NCBI GenBank assembly: GCA_030267125.1
Contig: JAJDJJ010000003.1
Location: forward strand, 1-64,000
Direction: 5' to 3'
Length of the DNA: 64,000 nt
From: Bacteroidales bacterium OttesenSCG-928-B11
GTDB lineage: Bacteria; Bacteroidota; Bacteroidia; Bacteroidales; WCHB1-69
Shown here: positions 2,010-50,164 of the stretch, piece after piece
How positions within the stretch are numbered: position 1 is the stretch's first letter
Layout: every line of letters starts with the position of its first letter
Made by a program: the position numbers and the translations under genes
The notes under the pieces: generated by a model
Told to the model about the DNA's origin: nothing
The model's input: the letters and a program-made list of their open reading frames with translations, nothing else
The model's database searches: none

Positions 2010-4790
2010 TTAAAATTTGTAACTTAATCCAAGACTAAAATCATGTCCTTTCTTAAATTCGTTGAGCGTGATTTTTTCGCCTGACGAACTCTCGCGTGTT
2101 AAGCGATAAGGCAGATTTAGCAGATTGGATGCTTTTATTTTTATAGCGAAATGTTTATTGAATGTATAGGATGCTACAAAATTGAGCGTTGGAACACTTT
2201 CCTCGATAATGTCGTTAAATCCTCCCGCTCCAATAGTATGAATACGGGCACTGAAATAGTTGAACACAAGCGACAGTGCTAAGTTTTGCTCTTTCTTCGT
2301 GAAATTATATGATATATCGGCATTGACGAGGAACGGGGAAGCTCCTTCGAGAGCGCTGTTTCGGACTTCGGTATTGCGAATGTCAAGTTTGAGATTGGTA
2401 TAAATATAGGATGCGCTCAATCCAACCGAAAGGCGGTTTGTTTGTTCCTGTTCGGCTTTGATACGGTTGAAAATATTTTTACGGAATTCCAACTCTACTC
2501 CGCCTACCGTTGCCTTATCGCTGATATTATTGTAGGTAAGCAAGCCGGCGGAGTTGCCTTCATCCACACGACCAATCGGGTTTTGGATATATTTGTAGAA
2601 ACCGGTAAGCGAAAGCAACTCGCTTGGACTTATATAATAATCCCATTTCAAATCCACATTGTAATTGTCCGAAGGCTTCAGATTAGGATTTCCCTGACTT
2701 GCAAAGGAGATATTCACATACTGATAGGGGGAAATTTCCTTCGATTGTGGCAGTGTGTAGGTCTTGCTCGCGCCTAAACGAATGGAGTGTTTATCATTGA
2801 TGTCGTATTTCAAATTGAGGTTCGGCAAGAAATAATTTTTGTCATTTTCTACTGTCCCGGGTGCGACGTGCTGCACTTGATAATCAATATCCATATCCAC
2901 AATATCCATTCTCAAACCGATGCTTCCGCTAAGTTTTTTCAAAAACTGATAAGATGCTTCTGCAAATGCGGAGTGAATATATTTTGTTACATCATAAGTA
3001 TTGGCATCGCCGGTTGTCATACGGAATTTATTATCTGTTAGATTTGCTTGGTTGTACAGGTCGTCTAATTTTACATCCTCTATATTGAAAAATCCGCTTA
3101 CAGCACTAAAGTTATATTCGACTGCTTCGAAATTGGTATTGGAAAAACGACCGACATATCCTATTTTCAGATGATTGTTCTTGGAGCGATTGTTGAATTG
3201 GTACGTCAAGGCGGCTTTTACATTGATGTCATCTTCTGTCAGCGCAGAAAAAAATCGTTTTTGTCGATTGCTTCCGGTCAAGATATAAGAATCTCCATCC
3301 TGTTGAGAGAAATAGTTTTCGCGTCTGTCGGGTTCCAGCAAGCCGGTTATAAGGTTGTACGAAACACCCACATCTAATTTTAATTTCTTAGACAATCCCC
3401 AGTCCGACAATAATTGATTTGTCAATAACATATTATCGTTGGTTTGTTGACGGCGCATAAAACCGATGTATTCGGGACTGTCCTGATGACGTTCGGAATT
3501 ATAGCCCGAATATTCGCCCACATATTGGTGATTGGCATGAACAAGCATGAAATTATACTGTAAACTGTGCTTGCGATTCATGTCGTATCTCAAATTTGCA
3601 AGGATGATTTGGTTGGTGTTTTGCGAATATTTATCGCCCGTTTGGTCTTGCCAAACAGTTCCTGCCGTGTTGGAATTGCGGATAGTCTCTTCTGTAAAAG
3701 AGTAATCGATGTTGTGCGTTACCACCGCAAAAAAGGAAAGTGGGTTTTTATTTTTTCCCAGTTTAAACAACTTACCGCCAGAGATGCCAAAACTGTGATT
3801 CAAAGGTAGCGACACCGTTGAAGGGTCTAAGCTGTTGGGGAAATCAAATTGATTATTTTCAGGTTGTTTTCTGTTGGCAAATCCGAAATAATTGGAGCCG
3901 TCCTGACGGAGAAAACCGCTTGTTCCGATAGCTGCAGTATTTACGCCTGCCGATACATCAACTCCCAACGCATAATCGTCCTCTAATTCTTTAGATGAGA
4001 TATTGATAACGGCACCGCCCACATCGGAATAATCGCCGGCACTGAACACTTTACTTACGCTGATGTTTTTGATAATATCCGTTGTAAAAAAATCCAATGA
4101 AATATTTTTGTATTCCGGGTCTTCGGAGGGAATTGGAAACCCGTTGAGCAGCGTAATATTGTAGCGGTCGCCTAATCCGCGAACAAACACATTCTTCACG
4201 CCCTCCTGTCGAGATACGCCCGAAACTTGCGCCACCGCCGCCTGCGCATCGCCAATTCCTTTGCGTGAAAGTTCATTAGCACCAACGGATTGCGTAGCGA
4301 CTAATGCTCTCTTTTGATCCATTATCAATGCGTTTTCACTTTCTCGATTGACCCGGGTCGTCACCACAACCGTTTTTAAAAGAACCTCATCAGATCTTAA
4401 CGACAACGTAACCTCAGTCTCTTTTCCGGCCTCAACGATCACGCCCTCTTTTTTGAGAGGCAAATAACCAAGATAAGATGTAACTAATATATATGTACCG
4501 GCAGGAACGTCATTAATAATGAAATTTCCACTTAAACTTGCGGCCGCACCAGTGGTAGTACCTTCAATCCTAACAACCGCGCCAATAAGAGGCGCAACGG
4601 TGTTGCTGTCAACAACAACTCCTTTTATCGTACCGGTTTGAGCAAAAATCACCGTACTCATAAAAGCAAAAATTAAGCACACAACTATCCGCAGTAAAAA
4701 TGGATTGCGACTCTCCCCTTTAAAAATTTTCAACTTTAACACATTCATTTTCATTCTCTTTTTCCTTGCTTTTTCACTCTTAATAATCAT
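2010..4790 (-). CDS. TonB-dependent outer-membrane receptor with N-terminal carboxypeptidase-like regulatory domain
   Basis: Signal peptide, GTIKGVVVDSNTVAPLIGAVVRIEGT regulatory domain, plug (GDAQAAVAQVSGVSRQEGVKNVFVRGLGDRYN), C-terminal beta-barrel ending SLGLSYKF. Confidence 0.93.
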   Translation of the reverse strand: MIIKSEKARKKRMKMNVLKLKIFKGESRNPFLLRIVVCLIFAFMSTVIFAQTGTIKGVVVDSNTVAPLIGAVVRIEGTTTGAAASLSGNFIINDVPAGTYILVTSYLGYLPLKKEGVIVEAGKETEVTLSLRSDEVLLKTVVVTTRVNRESENALIMDQKRALVATQSVGANELSRKGIGDAQAAVAQVSGVSRQEGVKNVFVRGLGDRYNITLLNGFPIPSEDPEYKNISLDFFTTDIIKNISVSKVFSAGDYSDVGGAVINISSKELEDDYALGVDVSAGVNTAAIGTSGFLRQDGSNYFGFANRKQPENNQFDFPNSLDPSTVSLPLNHSFGISGGKLFKLGKNKNPLSFFAVVTHNIDYSFTEETIRNSNTAGTVWQDQTGDKYSQNTNQIILANLRYDMNRKHSLQYNFMLVHANHQYVGEYSGYNSERHQDSPEYIGFMRRQQTNDNMLLTNQLLSDWGLSKKLKLDVGVSYNLITGLLEPDRRENYFSQQDGDSYILTGSNRQKRFFSALTEDDINVKAALTYQFNNRSKNNHLKIGYVGRFSNTNFEAVEYNFSAVSGFFNIEDVKLDDLYNQANLTDNKFRMTTGDANTYDVTKYIHSAFAEASYQFLKKLSGSIGLRMDIVDMDIDYQVQHVAPGTVENDKNYFLPNLNLKYDINDKHSIRLGASKTYTLPQSKEISPYQYVNISFASQGNPNLKPSDNYNVDLKWDYYISPSELLSLTGFYKYIQNPIGRVDEGNSAGLLTYNNISDKATVGGVELEFRKNIFNRIKAEQEQTNRLSVGLSASYIYTNLKLDIRNTEVRNSALEGASPFLVNADISYNFTKKEQNLALSLVFNYFSARIHTIGAGGFNDIIEESVPTLNFVASYTFNKHFAIKIKASNLLNLPYRLTRESSSGEKITLNEFKKGHDFSLGLSYKF

Positions 4791-40986: not shown

Positions 40987-42462
40987 ATGATGTTCGAACA
41001 AACTTTTAAAAATATTGACGATATACTTCACAAAGATGCGGGTTGCGGTAGTGAATTGGATTATGTGGAGCAAACCTCTTGGATTTTGTTTCTCAAATAC
41101 TTAGACGATTTGGAGAAAGACCGAGCCACAGCCGCCGAACTCACGGGAAAGACCTATACGCCTATTATCGACAAGGATTATCAATGGACTGTTTGGGCAA
41201 TGCCAAAAGGCAAGGATGGAAAACTCGACCACCACAAAGCGCTCACGGGAGATGATCTTACCGATTTTGTGAACAACAAACTCTTTCCGTATCTCAAAAA
41301 GTTTAAACAGAACGCCGAAAGCGCCGACACTATTGAATACAAAATCGGAGAGATTTTCAGCGAACTAAAAAATCGCATACAAAGTGGCTACAATTTGCGT
41401 GAAGTGATTAACCGCATTGACGAGTTGCGTTTCCGTACCCATGCTGAAAAGCACGAAATGAGTCATTTGTACGAGGACAAAATCAAAAACATGGGAAACG
41501 CGGGACGAAACGGCGGCGAATATTACACACCTCGTCCACTTATCACTACGATTGTAAAAGTGGTCGCCCCTGAAATCGGCGATAAAATTTATGATGGAGC
41601 AGTTGGTAGCGCGGGATTCCTTTGCGAAGCGTTTTCTTATCTAAAAAACCGCCCTTCGGCAGGCTCAAGTAGCGGTTTATCTACAAAAGAAACCGAGATA
41701 TTGCAAAAACGCTCTTTTTATGGCAAAGAGAAAAAATCCTTGGCATACATCATCGGCATTATGAATATGATTTTTCATGGCGTGGAAGCTCCAAACATTA
41801 TTCATACCAACACGCTAGCCGAAAACCTTGCTGATATACAAGAAAAAGACCGCTACGATGTGGTACTTGCCAATCCGCCTTTTGGTGGAAAGGAACGTGC
41901 CGAAGTGCAACAAAACTTCCCGATAAAAACAGGCGAAACCGCTTCGCTCTTTTTGCAACACTTCATGAAAATTCTGAAAGCAGGCGGAAAAGCAGGTGTA
42001 GTAATTAAAAACACCTTTTTGAGTAATACAGACAATGCCACCGTTGCCATACGCAAAACCTTGTTGGAAAGCTGTAATCTGCACACCGTATTGGATTTAC
42101 CCGGCGGAACGTTTACAGGCGCCGGAGTGAAAACGGTCGTTTTGTTTTTTGAAAAAGGAAAACCCACCCAAAATGTTTGGTTTTATCAATTAAACCTCGA
42201 CCGAAATTTGGGCAAAACAAATCCGCTGAACGAAAACGACCTTGCGGAATTTATTGAACTTCAAAAGACTTTTGCAGAAACTGAAAACTCTTGGACGGTT
42301 AATGTCAAAGATATTGACCAAAGCACGTTTGATTTGAGCGTAAAAAACCCCAATAAGAAAGAAGTTGTTCAACTTCGCTCACCACTCGAGATATTGGAAG
42401 AAATAAAAGCATTGGACGAAGAAAGTACGGAAATTCTATTGTCAATAAAAGAGTTGCTATGA
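40987..42462 (+). CDS. hsdM: Type I restriction-modification system DNA methyltransferase HsdM
   Basis: NAGRNGGEYYTPRPLI; motif IV NPPFGGKER. Confidence 0.95.
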   Translation: MMFEQTFKNIDDILHKDAGCGSELDYVEQTSWILFLKYLDDLEKDRATAAELTGKTYTPIIDKDYQWTVWAMPKGKDGKLDHHKALTGDDLTDFVNNKLFPYLKKFKQNAESADTIEYKIGEIFSELKNRIQSGYNLREVINRIDELRFRTHAEKHEMSHLYEDKIKNMGNAGRNGGEYYTPRPLITTIVKVVAPEIGDKIYDGAVGSAGFLCEAFSYLKNRPSAGSSSGLSTKETEILQKRSFYGKEKKSLAYIIGIMNMIFHGVEAPNIIHTNTLAENLADIQEKDRYDVVLANPPFGGKERAEVQQNFPIKTGETASLFLQHFMKILKAGGKAGVVIKNTFLSNTDNATVAIRKTLLESCNLHTVLDLPGGTFTGAGVKTVVLFFEKGKPTQNVWFYQLNLDRNLGKTNPLNENDLAEFIELQKTFAETENSWTVNVKDIDQSTFDLSVKNPNKKEVVQLRSPLEILEEIKALDEESTEILLSIKELL

Positions 42463-43334
42463 AAAACGAAATAATACTATACAGCCCTAATGAGCTTAGC
42501 AAACATATTGAAGTACGACTTGATGAAGATAAAGAAACGCTTTGGCTAACTCAAGAACAAATCGCCCAACTTTTCGAAAGAGATAGAAGCGTAATAACCA
42601 AACATTTGAAAAATATTTTCAAAGAAGAGGAGTTGGACGAAAAAGTGGTTAGTGCATTTTTTGCACTAACCACTCAACACGGAGCCATTAAAGGAAAAAC
42701 ACAGACAATGAAAGTGAAATTTTATAATCTTGACGCTATTTTGTCAGTCGGCTACCGTGTTAATTCCAAACAAGGCACACAGTTTAGAATATGGGCAAAC
42801 AAAATCCTGAAAGACTATTTATTAAAAGGTTATGCCATAAATAACCGAATGAACCGCATTGAGGACAATGTGTCGGCTCTTTCGGAAAAAGTAAACGAGA
42901 TTGACCTGCAAATAAACACACATCTAATTCCCACACAAGGCGTATTTTTCGATGGGCAAGTGTTTGACGCTTACGAATTGGCTTCTAAAATCATTCGCTC
43001 AGCCAAGCAAAGCATAATTTTGATAGATAATTACATAGACGAAACCACATTGATGCATTTATCAAAGAAGAAAAAAGGCGTAAGCGTGTTGTTGCTTACA
43101 AAAAACATAAGCAAACAACTGACCTTGGATATTGAAAAAGCCAGCGAACAATACGGTAATTTCACAGCAAAACCGTTTACCCACAGCCACGACCGTTTTC
43201 TAATTCTCGACCAAAAAGAAATCTATCATCTTGGAGCTTCGCTCAAAGATTTAGGCAGAAAATGGTTTGCTTTCTCTAAAATGGATAAACATTCGGTAAG
43301 CGGTATTATTAACTCAATTTCTGAAATGCTATGA
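42459..43334 (+). CDS. RhuM-family protein with C-terminal PLD-like region
   Basis: EVRLDEDKETLWLTQEQIAQLFERDRSVITKHLKNIF...VGYRVNSKQGTQFRIWANKILKDYLLKGY; C-terminal HDRFLILDQKEIYHLGASLKDLGRKWFAFSKM. Confidence 0.9.
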   Translation: MKNEIILYSPNELSKHIEVRLDEDKETLWLTQEQIAQLFERDRSVITKHLKNIFKEEELDEKVVSAFFALTTQHGAIKGKTQTMKVKFYNLDAILSVGYRVNSKQGTQFRIWANKILKDYLLKGYAINNRMNRIEDNVSALSEKVNEIDLQINTHLIPTQGVFFDGQVFDAYELASKIIRSAKQSIILIDNYIDETTLMHLSKKKKGVSVLLLTKNISKQLTLDIEKASEQYGNFTAKPFTHSHDRFLILDQKEIYHLGASLKDLGRKWFAFSKMDKHSVSGIINSISEML

Positions 43335-44566
43335 TGAAGTGGAAGAGAAAGAAATTAAATGAGTTTTGCGAGTTCAGTAATGGACTTTGGACAGGGAAGA
43401 AACCTCCTTTTCAAACTGTTGGAGTAATAAGAAATACAAATTTCACAAAAGATTGTCTTCTTGATGATAGTGATATCGTTTATTTAGAAGTTGAACAATC
43501 TCAATTTCAAAAAAGGAAATTGCAATACGGTGATATAATTCTTGAAAAGTCAGGTGGTGGACCAAAACAACCTGTTGGAAGAGTTGTGATTTTTGATAAG
43601 ACTGATGGTGATTTTTCATTTAGCAACTTTACTTCTGTAATTAGGATTAAGAATAAAGATGAAGTTGATTTCAACTTTCTACACAGATGTCTATTCTTGG
43701 AATACATTTCAGGTGCTACTGAAAAAATGCAAAGTCATTCGACAGGCATCCGAAATTTGAAATTTGATGAGTATAAAGAAATAGAAATCCCACTTCCCCC
43801 TCTCCCCGAACAACAACGCATTGTTTCCATATTAGATAAAGCCTTTTCGGCTATTGAGCGAAGTCGAAATAATGCCGAACAAAACCTTAAAAATGCAAAA
43901 GAATTGTTTGAGAGTTATTTGCAGGGGATATTTGAGAATGGGAATTGGGAAACGAAAAAGCTAAATGAAATAACTGAAGTAAAAGATGGCACACACGATA
44001 GTCCAAAATATATTAAAGAAGGAATTCCTTTTGTCACTCAAAAGAATATCAAACCTGATGGATTTTCATTTGGTGATACAAAATTCATCACAGAAACAGA
44101 CCACGAAAAGTTTTACAAGCGTTCAAATGTGACTTATGGTGATATTCTAATTTCAATGATTGGAGCAAATAGGGGAATGGCTGCAATAGTAGATGATAAA
44201 AGAGTTTTCAGTATCAAGAATGTTGGCTTGATCAAGTCAAGTGATAACATTAATATGAATTACCTACTTTATTATTTGAAATCTTCAGTAGCAATGAAAT
44301 ATGTTTTGTATATGTCAAATGGTGGAGCACAAGAATTTGTTGGATTGACAGCGTTGAGAAGTTTTCCAATTCCCCTTCCTCCACTTAAAGAACAACAAAC
44401 CATCGTCCACCAATTAGATGCCTTGCGAGCTGAAACACAAAAACTGGAAACGGTGTATCAAAAGAAAATAGCAGATTTGGAGGAACTGAAAAAAAGTATC
44501 TTGCAGAAGGCGTTCAATGGGGAGCTTGTCGAACCTACAGGGGAGTTAAAAATAGAAAAAAAATAA
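43331..44566 (+). CDS. hsdS: Type I restriction specificity subunit HsdS (two TRD halves)
   Basis: IPLPPLPEQQRIVSILDKAF and IPLPPLKEQQTIVHQLDAL; LKKSILQKAFNGEL. Confidence 0.95.
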   Translation: MMKWKRKKLNEFCEFSNGLWTGKKPPFQTVGVIRNTNFTKDCLLDDSDIVYLEVEQSQFQKRKLQYGDIILEKSGGGPKQPVGRVVIFDKTDGDFSFSNFTSVIRIKNKDEVDFNFLHRCLFLEYISGATEKMQSHSTGIRNLKFDEYKEIEIPLPPLPEQQRIVSILDKAFSAIERSRNNAEQNLKNAKELFESYLQGIFENGNWETKKLNEITEVKDGTHDSPKYIKEGIPFVTQKNIKPDGFSFGDTKFITETDHEKFYKRSNVTYGDILISMIGANRGMAAIVDDKRVFSIKNVGLIKSSDNINMNYLLYYLKSSVAMKYVLYMSNGGAQEFVGLTALRSFPIPLPPLKEQQTIVHQLDALRAETQKLETVYQKKIADLEELKKSILQKAFNGELVEPTGELKIEKK

Positions 44567-44570
44567 TTGT

Positions 44571-46406
44571 ATGAAAGTAAAATTAAGTCAAGCCGTTAAA
44601 ATGTTTTTTAGCAGCTCATCACTTGAGATGGTTTACTTAGAAGCTATTGCAAACGCATTAGATGCAAATGCAACGGAGATTGAAATCAAAATATCAATGA
44701 AGGCATTTAATCAATCTGAAACTCTTCAAATCGAAATTTCTGATAATGGCGAAGGTTTAACAGATGAGCGTTACAAGAAATTTTCAAAATTATTCGATGT
44801 TGAAGAAAGCACACACAAAGGCTTAGGGCGATTAGTTTATTTATGCTATTTCGAAGATGTAAAGGTTGTTAGCTATTTTGAAAAAACAAAAAAAAGAACT
44901 TTTAACTTCTCTGATGATTTTGAAGAAGAAAAATTCAAAATAGACAAGGTTGAAGAAAAGGAGTCCGGAACATGTTTTAAAATGACAAACTATACTCTTC
45001 AAAAAATTGCTAAGAATGATTACATCCATCCGAGAAAAATTAAGCAACGGATTTTGGAAGAATTTTATTCAAGACTTTTCCATCTAAAAAAACAAGGATG
45101 TTCGCTTAATATTAAAATAGAATCAATTATTGATGGTAAAAAAATGGTGTCAACGATTGATAGTACAGATATTCCTGAATTTACCGATGTGGAATTAAGC
45201 AGCTCTATTAACCTCATTGATAAATTTATTTTGTATTATTCAATAAAAGAAGTTGACCCACAAGATTCATCTTTGATTGCTGCAATTTCTGTTGATAATA
45301 GGACTGTTAAGGTGGATTTAATTTCAAATGAAAATATGTTGCCTGGCTATGAAATGGTATTTCTGCTCTATTCAGATTTTTTCGTTGGTAAAATTGATGC
45401 AGCAAGGCAAAATTTGACTATTTCTCCACAGGAGTTGAAAGATGTTCAAACCATATTTAGGAAAGAAGTCATTTCTATAATTGAAGCTAAAATACCAAGA
45501 ATTAAAAAGAGGAACAGTGATGTTAAGGCAGGGCTTATTTCAAAATTCCCTCATTTAAGCAGTTATTTTGACACGAATAATATTGGATATATTCCACGAA
45601 ACGAGATTTTGAAAAAAGCACAAAATGAATTTTTCCAAGAGCAAAAAGAAATTTTAGATGCAACATCCTTAAATGATGAGCAATTTGAAAAATCAGTAGA
45701 ATTATCATCAAGAGCATTGACGGAATATATTTTGTTCCGACAATTAACTGTTGAAAAATTAAAAAAATCAACAGACTCTGAGAGTGAAGCTGAGATACAT
45801 AAATTATTTGCTTTAATGCGTAAAGATGGTAGATTTGAAAAGAAAAATTGCATTGATGACATTTATAAAAATAGCGCTTGGCTACTTGATGACAAATACA
45901 TGACTTATGAAACCATACTCAGTGACAGAGAAATGGGTGAACTAATAAAAGAAATAACGGATGATGAAGGTGTTGAAGATGATAATAGACCAGATATGGC
46001 TTTGATATTTTCTAATAATCCTGAAAACAAAAAACCTTTCGATGTTGTAATTGTAGAGTTTAAAAAAAGAGGGATTTCATTAGAAGAAAACATGAAAGTT
46101 GTAACTCAACTTGAAAAACGTGCGCGAAAATTAATGAAACATTACAATAATCAAATTCAAAGAATTTGGTTTTATGGAATTATAGAGTTTAATGAAGAAG
46201 TAGAGATGCAATTAGCAGGAGAATACACTGAATTATATTCTTCTGGGAAAATGTATTATAGAGAAACGAATATAGCGATATCACTTAATCCGAAAATAAC
46301 ATTGCCGATCGGAGTTTTTATATGGGATTTAGATGCTGTAATAAGTGATGCTGATGCTCGCAATTCGACATTCTTGAATTTAGTGAAAAGTAAGTTTATT
46401 CAGTAA
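44571..46406 (+). CDS. GHKL ATPase with C-terminal PD-(D/E)XK-like nuclease domain, in the hsd operon
   Basis: N box EAIANALDANA, G1 DNGEGL, G2 HKGLGR; C-terminal RPDMALIFSNN...FDVVIVEFKKRG. Confidence 0.82.
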   Translation: MKVKLSQAVKMFFSSSSLEMVYLEAIANALDANATEIEIKISMKAFNQSETLQIEISDNGEGLTDERYKKFSKLFDVEESTHKGLGRLVYLCYFEDVKVVSYFEKTKKRTFNFSDDFEEEKFKIDKVEEKESGTCFKMTNYTLQKIAKNDYIHPRKIKQRILEEFYSRLFHLKKQGCSLNIKIESIIDGKKMVSTIDSTDIPEFTDVELSSSINLIDKFILYYSIKEVDPQDSSLIAAISVDNRTVKVDLISNENMLPGYEMVFLLYSDFFVGKIDAARQNLTISPQELKDVQTIFRKEVISIIEAKIPRIKKRNSDVKAGLISKFPHLSSYFDTNNIGYIPRNEILKKAQNEFFQEQKEILDATSLNDEQFEKSVELSSRALTEYILFRQLTVEKLKKSTDSESEAEIHKLFALMRKDGRFEKKNCIDDIYKNSAWLLDDKYMTYETILSDREMGELIKEITDDEGVEDDNRPDMALIFSNNPENKKPFDVVIVEFKKRGISLEENMKVVTQLEKRARKLMKHYNNQIQRIWFYGIIEFNEEVEMQLAGEYTELYSSGKMYYRETNIAISLNPKITLPIGVFIWDLDAVISDADARNSTFLNLVKSKFIQ

Positions 46407-46408
46407 AT

Positions 46409-48772
46409 ATGAACGAAGCAGAAACCAGAGCGGAATTAATCGACCCCAAGCTAAAGGCTTGCGGTTGGGGTGTTGTTGAAGGCTCTAAAGTTCTTCGAGA
46501 ACATGCTATTACTGCGGGAAAAATTCAAACAGGCGGTGGTAGGGGAAAAAGAGAAATCGCCGATTATGTGTTGGTTTACAAAGGAATTAAATTGGCTGTG
46601 ATTGAAGCCAAAAGTGATGAATTGGAAGTTGGCGAAGGTGTAATGCAAGCCAAAAAGTATGCGGAAAAATTAAAATTAGAAACCACATACAGCGCCAACG
46701 GAAAAGAAATTTACCAAATCTGCCTAAAAACAGGCGAAGAAAGTTTGGTAAGCGATTTTCTAACTCCCGAACAACTTTGGGATAAAACTTTTCCTGAGCT
46801 TATCGAAGGAAATGCTTCGGACATTGAGCGTAGTCGAAATACCGAACTATGGCGAGAAAAATTTGCATCAGTACCATTTGAAGACAAAAGCGGAACATGG
46901 CAACTTCGGTATTATCAGGAAATTGCGGTGCAAAAAACAGTCGAAGCAATTGCACAAAACAAAGAACGTATTTTGCTTACCCTTGCCACAGGAACGGGAA
47001 AAACGGCAATCGCTTTTCAAATCGCTTGGAAACTGTTTCAAACCCGCTGGAATTTAAAACGAGACGGCAGCCGCCGTCCAAGAGTTTTATTTTTAGCAGA
47101 CCGTAATATTTTGGCAGACCAAGCCTACAACTCATTTTCGGCATTTCCCGAAGATGCTTTGGTACGGATTAAGCCAAACGAAATAAAGAAAAACGGAAAA
47201 GTTCCGACTAACGGAAGTATTTTCTTTACTATTTTTCAGACCTTTATGTCGGGCATCGACAGAGAAGGAAATCCTTCGCCTTACTTTGGCGAATATCCTG
47301 CCAATTATTTTGATTTTATCATCATCGACGAATGCCACCGAGGTGGAGCCAATGACGAAAGCAATTGGCGGGGAATTTTGGATTACTTTTCTCCCGCAGT
47401 GCAATTGGGTTTGACCGCTACACCAAAACGAAAAGATAATGTGGATACGTATCGCTATTTTGGCGAACCGGTTTACATTTATTCGCTCAAAGAAGGTATC
47501 AACGATGGTTTTTTAACGCCATTCAAAGTAAAACGCATCAAAACAACTTTGGACGATTACCGCTACACTTCGGACGATACCGTTGTAGAAGGCGAAATCG
47601 AAGAAGGCAAACTCTATGAAGAGAAAGACTTTAACCGCACCATTGAAATCGTAGAACGAGAAACCAAGCGGGTGAACATATACTTGGAAGAAGCCAATCA
47701 AAAAGAAAAGGCTATCGTTTTCTGTGCCAATCAAGGTCATGCGGCATTGATTCGAGATTTAATCAATCAAAATGCAAAAAGTAAAGACCCTTTTTACTGT
47801 GTTCGCGTAACCGCCAACGATGGCGAAGAAGGCGAACGATTGTTGAGAGAATTTCAGGATAACGAAAAAATAATTCCTACCATTCTCACAACTTCACAAA
47901 AGCTTTCTACGGGTGTTGATGCACGGAATATTCGCAATATTGTGTTGCTTCGTCCAGTCAATTCGATGATTGAGTTTAAACAAATAGTCGGGCGTGGAAC
48001 CCGTTTGTTTGATGGGAAAGAGTTTTTTACCATTTACGATTTTGTTGATGCGTACAAACATTTTTCCGATCCCGAATGGGACGGAGAACCTTTGGAAAGT
48101 GAGCCGACAGATGTTGTAACCGAACCGAGAGTACCATACGAGCCAAATGAGCCAAAAGAACCGACTAAAATAGAACGCAAACAGAAAATCAAAATCAAAT
48201 TGCGAAATGGAAAAGAAAGAGAAATACAATCAATGATTTCAACTTCTTTTTGGAGTGCAGAAGGCAAGCCTATTTCAGCAGAAGAATTTTTAAATAATCT
48301 GTTTGGCGAGTTACCTAAACTTTTCAAAGATGAAGAAGAATTGCGGAAACTGTGGAGTAATCCCATTACCCGAAAGGTTTTGTTAGAGAATTTGGAATCG
48401 GCAGGTTTCCCGAAAGACGATTTACTGACTTTGCAAAAGTTGGTAGATATGGAAAAGAGCGACTTATATGATGTGTTGGAATACGTTTTCAATGGCGACT
48501 ACATCGCAATGACAAGAGAAGCCAGAGCCAAAGCAGCCGAAGCAACAATCTTTGCCTTACTCAACGACCAACAAAAAGAGTTTATCTCTTTCGTTTTGAG
48601 CAAATACATTGAAACAGGTGTGGACGAGCTCGACCAAGACAAGTTGCCGATTTTGCTCACAAACAAATATCAATCCTTGGAAGACGCAAAAGAAATTTTA
48701 GGCGATGTGGCAAACATCAGCAAGTTGTTTGTAGAATTTCAAGAGCACCTTTATTTAAAAAGAATAGCATGA
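46409..48772 (+). CDS. hsdR: Type I restriction endonuclease subunit HsdR
   Basis: IADYVLVYKGIKLAVIEAKSD nuclease motif; LATGTGKTAIAFQIAW; IIDECHRGG; QIVGRGTRLFDGKEFFTIYDFVD. Confidence 0.95.
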   Translation: MNEAETRAELIDPKLKACGWGVVEGSKVLREHAITAGKIQTGGGRGKREIADYVLVYKGIKLAVIEAKSDELEVGEGVMQAKKYAEKLKLETTYSANGKEIYQICLKTGEESLVSDFLTPEQLWDKTFPELIEGNASDIERSRNTELWREKFASVPFEDKSGTWQLRYYQEIAVQKTVEAIAQNKERILLTLATGTGKTAIAFQIAWKLFQTRWNLKRDGSRRPRVLFLADRNILADQAYNSFSAFPEDALVRIKPNEIKKNGKVPTNGSIFFTIFQTFMSGIDREGNPSPYFGEYPANYFDFIIIDECHRGGANDESNWRGILDYFSPAVQLGLTATPKRKDNVDTYRYFGEPVYIYSLKEGINDGFLTPFKVKRIKTTLDDYRYTSDDTVVEGEIEEGKLYEEKDFNRTIEIVERETKRVNIYLEEANQKEKAIVFCANQGHAALIRDLINQNAKSKDPFYCVRVTANDGEEGERLLREFQDNEKIIPTILTTSQKLSTGVDARNIRNIVLLRPVNSMIEFKQIVGRGTRLFDGKEFFTIYDFVDAYKHFSDPEWDGEPLESEPTDVVTEPRVPYEPNEPKEPTKIERKQKIKIKLRNGKEREIQSMISTSFWSAEGKPISAEEFLNNLFGELPKLFKDEEELRKLWSNPITRKVLLENLESAGFPKDDLLTLQKLVDMEKSDLYDVLEYVFNGDYIAMTREARAKAAEATIFALLNDQQKEFISFVLSKYIETGVDELDQDKLPILLTNKYQSLEDAKEILGDVANISKLFVEFQEHLYLKRIA

Positions 48773-48937: not shown

Positions 48938-50164
48938 ATGAAGAATTTGATAGAAAGAACAGAATATCTTGATAAACTATGGTCATACAAGGATAAAGAC
49001 ATTATCAAAGTTGTAACTGGTTTACGCCGTTCGGGTAAATCTACGTTGTTAGAATTGTTCAGGAATCATTTATTGAAAAATAACGTAATGCCTGAACAAA
49101 TACAGCTATATAATTTCGAATTGCCTGAAAATTTTCTGAACAAAACATGGGAAACGCTTTATTTTGAAATAAAATCGAAGTTGCAGACAGATAAATCAAA
49201 TTACATTTTTCTCGATGAAATTCAGAATATTGCCAATTTTGAAAAATTAGTTGATGGACTTTATGCAACCGAAAATACAGATGTCTATATCACAGGTTCC
49301 AATGCCAATTTACTATCAAGTGAATTAGCTACTTTATTGAGTGGTAGATATATAGAAGTTTCTATTTTACCTTTTTCTTTCGCCGAATATTTGGAAGCCA
49401 GAAGCATTGATATAAGCAATAAATACTTGAATTACGAAGCATTATTTTATGATTATGTAAACGAAACTTCGTTGCCGAAAGGCGTTGATTTGAGGGAAGA
49501 AGGTTTTGATAAAATTTACGAATACCTTGAAGCTTTGTATACTACAATTATCGAAAAAGATATAACGCAACGATATAAAATCAACGATAAGCGAGCATTT
49601 GGAAATGTCGCTAAATTTTTGGCAGGCAATATCGGCAATCAAGTATCGCCGAGTAGCATTTCAAAAGCATTAAAAGCGGATAATCAAAATATTCACCATG
49701 CCACTGTAGAAAAATTTATTGGGTATTTAGTCGAAAGTTTTGTCTTTTATTGCGTCAATCGTTTCGATGTGAAAGGGAAAAAACAACTGGCTACACAGGA
49801 GAAATATTACTTGGTGGATTTGGGTTTACTAAACATATTGCTTGGCAGAGAAAAAACAGCAGACAGAGGGCATATTCTTGAGAATATTGTATATCTTGAA
49901 CTGCTAAGACGAGGTTGCAAAATCTGGACAGGTGCGCTTCGTAACAGTGAGATTGATTTTGTTGTTAAAAATCGAATAGGAGAAATCGAATATTACCAAG
50001 TTTCGTGGGAAATTTCAAGCACAGAAACTGAAGAACGTGAATTTAGTCCATTGAAAAAAGTGAAAGACAATTATCCTAAATTTCTACTTACGACTGAATC
50101 ATTTCCTCAAAGTAGAGATGGAATAATTCACAGAAATGTATTTGAATGGTTATTAGAGAAATAG
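48938..50164 (+). CDS. AAA+ ATPase with DUF4143 domain
   Basis: VTGLRRSGKSTLLELF, YIFLDEIQN, YITGSNANLLSSELATLLSGRYIEVSILPFSFAEYL, EIDFVVKN. Confidence 0.93.
   Translation: MKNLIERTEYLDKLWSYKDKDIIKVVTGLRRSGKSTLLELFRNHLLKNNVMPEQIQLYNFELPENFLNKTWETLYFEIKSKLQTDKSNYIFLDEIQNIANFEKLVDGLYATENTDVYITGSNANLLSSELATLLSGRYIEVSILPFSFAEYLEARSIDISNKYLNYEALFYDYVNETSLPKGVDLREEGFDKIYEYLEALYTTIIEKDITQRYKINDKRAFGNVAKFLAGNIGNQVSPSSISKALKADNQNIHHATVEKFIGYLVESFVFYCVNRFDVKGKKQLATQEKYYLVDLGLLNILLGREKTADRGHILENIVYLELLRRGCKIWTGALRNSEIDFVVKNRIGEIEYYQVSWEISSTETEEREFSPLKKVKDNYPKFLLTTESFPQSRDGIIHRNVFEWLLEK

Follow-up and report, generated by a model that had tools for sequence, protein, structure and literature searches.

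The account of the paraMORC3 family by Iyer, Abhiman and Aravind (2008, PMC2292703) describes, in the part dealing with these proteins, a GHKL ATPase domain combined with an S5-like domain and a C-terminal restriction endonuclease (RE)-fold domain bearing an E-D-ExK signature. By the same description, the family is prevalent in Bacteroidetes and proteobacteria, with a subset being standalone genes whose neighbours are not conserved. A member of this kind with experimentally established anti-phage activity is VcSduA from VSP-II of V. cholerae, a GHKL-type Shedu (type I-D) for which its authors give paraMORC3 as the older label (PMC12137116). The E27A and K557A substitutions each abolish its anti-phage activity, and its protection at all MOIs was taken by the authors as direct restriction that spares the host cell (PMC12137116). 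As for genomic context, type I restriction-modification (R-M) operons are known to house independent defence genes: DarTG2 is embedded between hsdS and hsdR (PMC12255303), and TgvAB and RloF are likewise found in the type I hsdS–hsdR interval (PMC11411939).

Here, we analyzed a gene at positions 44571–46406 of a 64,000-nucleotide stretch of a Bacteroidales genome (the window). This gene probably (a probability of roughly 0.78) codes for a paraMORC3/VcSduA-type anti-phage nuclease that works autonomously and spreads horizontally, inserted in the hsdS–hsdR interval of an EcoAI-like operon. The explanation is an ordinary one: the gene adds a further member to an established defence family, and its embedding site is of a kind already described.

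Operon organization in the window

Our reading of the ORFs showed an hsdM-rhuM-hsdS-GHKL-hsdR run on the forward strand, in which every ORF is intact and the successive junctions measure −4, −4, +4 and +2 nt, much as the original prediction had it. The genes are as follows:

40987..42462, + strand: hsdM, type I DNA adenine methyltransferase (NPPF at residue 296; Pfam N6_Mtase 2.7e-61)
42459..43334, + strand: rhuM-like gene, PADLOC candidate PDC-S05 (PDC-S05 2.3e-116; Pfam RhuM 3e-21)
43331..44566, + strand: hsdS, specificity subunit (Pfam Methylase_S 2.9e-39)
44571..46406, + strand: GHKL ATPase/PD-(D/E)XK nuclease, paraMORC3/VcSduA-like, 611 aa (Pfam, alignments, Foldseek)
46409..48772, + strand: hsdR, EcoAI-family restriction/translocase subunit (Pfam EcoEI_R_C/ResIII; IEAK, GTGKT, DECH)

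The type I operon itself looks intact, with two specificity-domain stretches in HsdS and an HsdR that scores above the NCBIfam EcoAI cut-off. With the rhuM-like gene between hsdM and hsdS and the GHKL gene between hsdS and hsdR, there are thus two cargo genes in one operon. The rhuM-like PDC-S05 gene (42459–43334) also occurs in locus L123 and partly in loci L124 and L013, and this recurrence therefore points to a second cargo slot. Directly past the operon, at 48938–50164, lies an AT-rich (32.8% GC) gene for an AAA_14/DUF4143 ATPase.

The physical embedding of the GHKL gene, as predicted, is evident from its flanking junctions of just 4 nt and 2 nt. These junctions would suit a functional accessory subunit of the type I system, namely an ATP-gated clamp nuclease recruited to HsdR-translocated or looped DNA or to HsdMS-bound sites, and acting with or behind HsdR. 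However, HsdR already carries its own IEAK nuclease motif along with the GTGKT and DECH motor motifs; the phyletic evidence bearing on this reading is taken up below.

Domain architecture of the GHKL protein

Within the 611-aa protein, Pfam detects the GHKL part alone (HATPase_c_3, 1.3e-8), and the nuclease part is named by none of the domain libraries searched. Three regions could be delineated:

44619..44960, + strand: GHKL ATPase domain, residues 17–130 (Pfam HATPase_c_3 1.3e-8; N-box E24/N28, DNGEG 58–62, HKGLGR 82–87)
44961..45674, + strand: S5-like transducer and helical linker, residues about 131–368, limits approximate (invariant R279; MutL/Hsp90/GyrB matches)
45675..46403, + strand: C-terminal nuclease region, residues 369–611 (E406, D475, E496-x-K498, Q513)

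We assessed conservation in an alignment of the window protein with 23 full-length homologues that are 59–84% identical to it. The three GHKL motifs of the original prediction are all present (E24-x3-N28, D58-N-G-E-G62 and H82KGLGR87), giving the complete set of ATP-binding motifs of the paraMORC3 description, and are joined by a near-invariant G133-T resembling the fourth motif. Invariant across the 24 sequences are E24, N28, D58, G60, G62, HKG-x-GR, R279, E406, D475, E496, K498 and Q513. A Foldseek search with the AlphaFold model of the whole protein (mean pLDDT 74.5) recovered the anticipated GHKL fold, with the N-terminal half matching MutL, PMS2, Hsp90, GyrB and SMCHD1 (E 1e-9 to 1e-11). 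The alignments extend over ~340–440 columns to the ATPase-transducer modules of MutL, PMS2, GyrB and Hsp90, which supports an S5 fold after the GHKL domain as in paraMORC3. While these proteins share the N-terminal ATPase-transducer fold with the window protein, their C-terminal effectors differ from its own, and the kinship is at the superfamily level only. A sequence search of the PDB returned just weak MutL/PMS2 matches.

The C-terminal half displays E406, RPD475 and VE496FK498, with Q513 in the following helix. Alignment to a second subfamily, ~20% identical in the nuclease part, revealed the same E...PD...ExK order there, and hhalign of the two nuclease halves alone gave a score of 39.9 (E 3.5e-5) against a maximum of 20.0 across 30 column shuffles. 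When the C-terminal region was modelled by itself from a broader alignment (mean pLDDT 76.4, pTM 0.75), the top Foldseek match was the PD-(D/E)XK nuclease McrC. This match is weak (E 0.03) and was set aside as proof of a nuclease fold; the assignment of the REase fold is hence founded on motifs and homology rather than on the model. Thus, the motif part of the predicted PD-(D/E)XK core stands, as an invariant E-D-ExK common to the second subfamily and to the paraMORC3 description, whereas its fold was matched weakly by structural search. Conservation across the 24 homologues supports both putative modules, and so does the alignment to the ~20%-identical subfamily with its shared E-D-ExK.

Relationship to paraMORC3, VcSduA and Shedu

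Judged by architecture and profile comparison, the window protein belongs with paraMORC3: set against the published family description, it has the same GHKL domain, S5-like transducer and E-D-ExK C-terminus. This upholds the kinship to MutL/MORC-like GHKL families that had been proposed with reference to Iyer et al. (2008). The setting in a type I operon, in contrast, is a context apart from the one given in that description (PMC2292703). A GHKL-nuclease fusion as a fifth type I subunit had been called a non-standard configuration, but such a fusion is already present, partly in standalone form, in the paraMORC3 description of 2008, and VcSduA has already been tested (PMC12137116).

As in VcSduA, a GHKL ATPase and a C-terminal PD-(D/E)XK domain are combined in a single protein, and the positions of the N-box Glu and the ExK Lys correspond between the two. 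We traced this relationship through a 672-aa protein from a V. fluvialis plasmid and its relatives, which the window protein matches in hhalign with E 2.4e-13 over an alignment that spans the ExK; the window protein also shows a full-length BLASTP match (E 3e-19) to a 700-aa protein from a Sinorhizobium plasmid. The V. fluvialis family has E27 and E554-x-K556, and because these lie near the reported E27 and K557, it is, going by architecture and residue numbering, probably the family of VcSduA. The window protein shows full-length remote kinship to a family of near-identical residue numbering. The differences are that its nuclease part is only ~20% identical to that VcSduA-numbered family, that it lacks a DUF4263/SduA_C match, and that VcSduA adjoins GrwAB whereas the window gene lies inside a type I operon.

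We did not file the window protein under Shedu (SduA). A Pfam search at E<1 yielded no match to DUF4263/SduA_C (PF14082) in the window protein, and a direct hhalign comparison of its family with SduA_C proteins gave no match (prob 0.3–1.2). The V. fluvialis family reaches the Shedu SduA_C (prob 72, E 3.3e-5), providing an indirect link. PADLOC has no model for the window protein or for five of its relatives; phage records contain no match to it, and plasmid records hold relatives at 21–29% identity and none closer. A full-text literature search combining type I restriction-modification, GHKL and hsdS returned no match. On the V. fluvialis plasmid (L104, 1–5812), the order is hsdM-hsdS-Shedu-GHKL/nuclease, with two PD-(D/E)XK-type defence genes adjacent to each other behind hsdS, which is a further type I association.

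The hsdS–hsdR interval in related operons

The constant presence across related operons that marks a core type I subunit was not seen for the GHKL gene: none of the ten readable hsdS–hsdR intervals of operons with a related HsdR contains it. The interval is instead a variable cargo site. Five of the ten are empty (3, 6, 13, 14 and 22 nt), two of these being in one genome of the window's genus, and three are occupied by a RAYT-type Y1 transposase gene (confirmed by Pfam in L119 and L122, by resemblance in L120). In L123, a 196-aa ORF with no Pfam match occupies the interval after hsdM-rhuM-hsdS, and in L124 there is a cassette that includes a DUF5131 protein. This interval repeatedly contains RAYT (Y1_Tnp) genes (L119, L120, L122, L001 and L003), which may help open it. 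The published cases of DarTG2, TgvAB and RloF, interpreted as guilt-by-embedding, represent the same interval with other cargo, the cargo of the window being a GHKL-nuclease. The embedding is also less unusual than the original prediction had it, as defence genes between hsdS and hsdR were already on record (PMC12255303, PMC11411939).

Distribution and mobility of the family

Most of the full-length homologues (59–84% identity) lie away from type I genes, in settings identified mostly by eye from sequence: beside rpoB (L021), beside integrases (L015, with an integrase-like gene and an IS), on prophage-like contigs (L012 in prophage-like DNA), beside unrelated methylases, or as solo copies (L008, L016 and L023). 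R-M genes or their remnants adjoin nine of the 24 proteins in our tree (the window, L001, L002, L003, L004, L006, L009, L011 and L019), a share not corrected for background, as the query from which the scan started was itself embedded in a type I operon; the count includes the window and the L002 remnant. These R-M neighbours are of mixed kinds, including type I, EcoRI-type methylase, Type ISP and Eco57I-like. In L004, the gene lies within an unrelated type I operon in the order hsdM-GHKL-hsdS.

Among 395 sampled genomes of the phylum, two have a full-length match, with the window's own genome not counted; the gene occurs in none of the 24 other genomes of the same genus or family and in one of 16 from the same order. 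Homologues are nevertheless found in MAGs of Fibrobacterota, Ignavibacteriota, Acidobacteriota and Pseudomonadota, and two viral contigs (L057 and L058) carry the gene amid phage-like genes. Its GC content is 30.4%, whereas hsdM has 41.7% and hsdR 40.6%; in 11 of 11 loci checked, the gene is AT-richer than its flanks. We consider the gene mobile because of this sporadic distribution, the viral contigs, the spread across phyla and the low GC.

Sporadic distribution and low GC would also fit a passenger without present function that was caught as a transient insertion. Against this, the ORF is intact with invariant catalytic residues, the divergence of the homologues indicates that purifying selection is strong (dN/dS ~0.05, though with dS saturated), and in L002 the ORF is intact among decayed neighbours (see below); a mere passenger is hence highly improbable.

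A clade retaining the hsd neighbourhood

In the tree of 24 proteins, the window protein groups with those of L001, L002 and L003 in a supported clade (100/99) that extends across phyla. hsdR sequence lies beside the GHKL gene in all three of these loci, and hsdS sequence lies upstream in L002 and L003. Since this neighbourhood is shared across phyla, the placement was inherited or transferred as a block and is no one-off accident. The original prediction had named the gene being missing here in every related locus as a refutation, which is not what these loci display.

The state of the operon varies within the clade. L002 (2900–5300) retains a C-terminal hsdS remnant with an in-frame stop, followed by an intact 614-aa GHKL ORF and, 3′ of it, an hsdR fragment of the first ~85 codons that is interrupted by a frameshift and a stop. 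The R-M operon died here while the GHKL reading frame was kept, which makes L002 a natural experiment on a cargo gene that outlasts its host operon. In L001 and L003, the GHKL gene is followed by a short stub from the beginning of hsdR, a RAYT gene and then a complete hsdR (L001: stub 1916–1986, complete hsdR at 4413, repeats accompanying the RAYT gene; L003: stub at about 3173–3245, read by eye and below the BLAST cut-off, complete hsdR at 4239). This arrangement is a partial hsdR duplication. L001 also codes for a protein with Bro-N and Fic domains (3078–4004), further cargo between the GHKL gene and hsdR.

The existence of one supported clade with adjoining hsdS/hsdR sequence in different phyla, together with the hsdM-GHKL-hsdS order of L004, speaks for the accessory type I subunit raised above. 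The ten related operons without the gene, the homologues that mostly have no hsd genes and the retention of the gene in L002 despite hsdS/hsdR decay speak against it, and we regard it as unlikely. The fifth type I subunit of the original prediction is ruled out as the best reading by the empty sites, the solo copies and the L002 remnant. Across the GHKL family at large there is no dependence on hsd placement, and it is from the predominance of homologues without type I neighbours, the ten operons and L002 that we deduce independence from R-M. The shared neighbourhood of the clade could reflect cooperation: at somewhat longer odds than the accessory subunit, its GHKL-nucleases might be facultative type I partners, with HsdR translocation or stalled HsdMS loading the clamp. 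If true, such a clamp would cut DNA otherwise spared by phage anti-restriction.

Functional implications

Anticodon nucleases such as PrrC or RloC are embedded in type I operons. This precedent, and the co-regulation that embedding gives, would be compatible with an abortive-infection or anti-restriction sensor that stays silent while the type I system works and kills the cell by DNA or RNA cleavage upon its inhibition by a phage, as in PrrC/RloC. However, the GHKL family is also found without R-M, and VcSduA protects at all MOIs with the host cell preserved (PMC12137116), leaving little probability for such a sensor.

For the preferred reading, an autonomous mobile anti-phage nuclease, ATP binding would dimerize the GHKL–S5 module, forming a MutL/Hsp90-like clamp that sits on DNA or a phage-derived complex. 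Cutting by the C-terminal E-D-ExK nuclease would be licensed when ATP is bound or hydrolysed. With these predicted ATPase and nuclease activities, infecting DNA would be restricted independently of HsdM/S/R. By analogy to VcSduA, the function is likely to be anti-phage, and the MOI-independent protection by that protein suggests direct restriction of phage DNA. The operon placement would serve shared expression: putative co-transcription with the hsd genes, probably with coupled translation, would provide a second layer of defence atop classical restriction.

The locus thus provides a clear added case of the hsdS–hsdR cargo site, which may be empty or hold a RAYT-type transposase, a DUF5131 cassette or a GHKL-nuclease. 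It also sets a subfamily centred on Bacteroidota, which both PADLOC and the Pfam Shedu model miss, beside an experimentally proven anti-phage protein.
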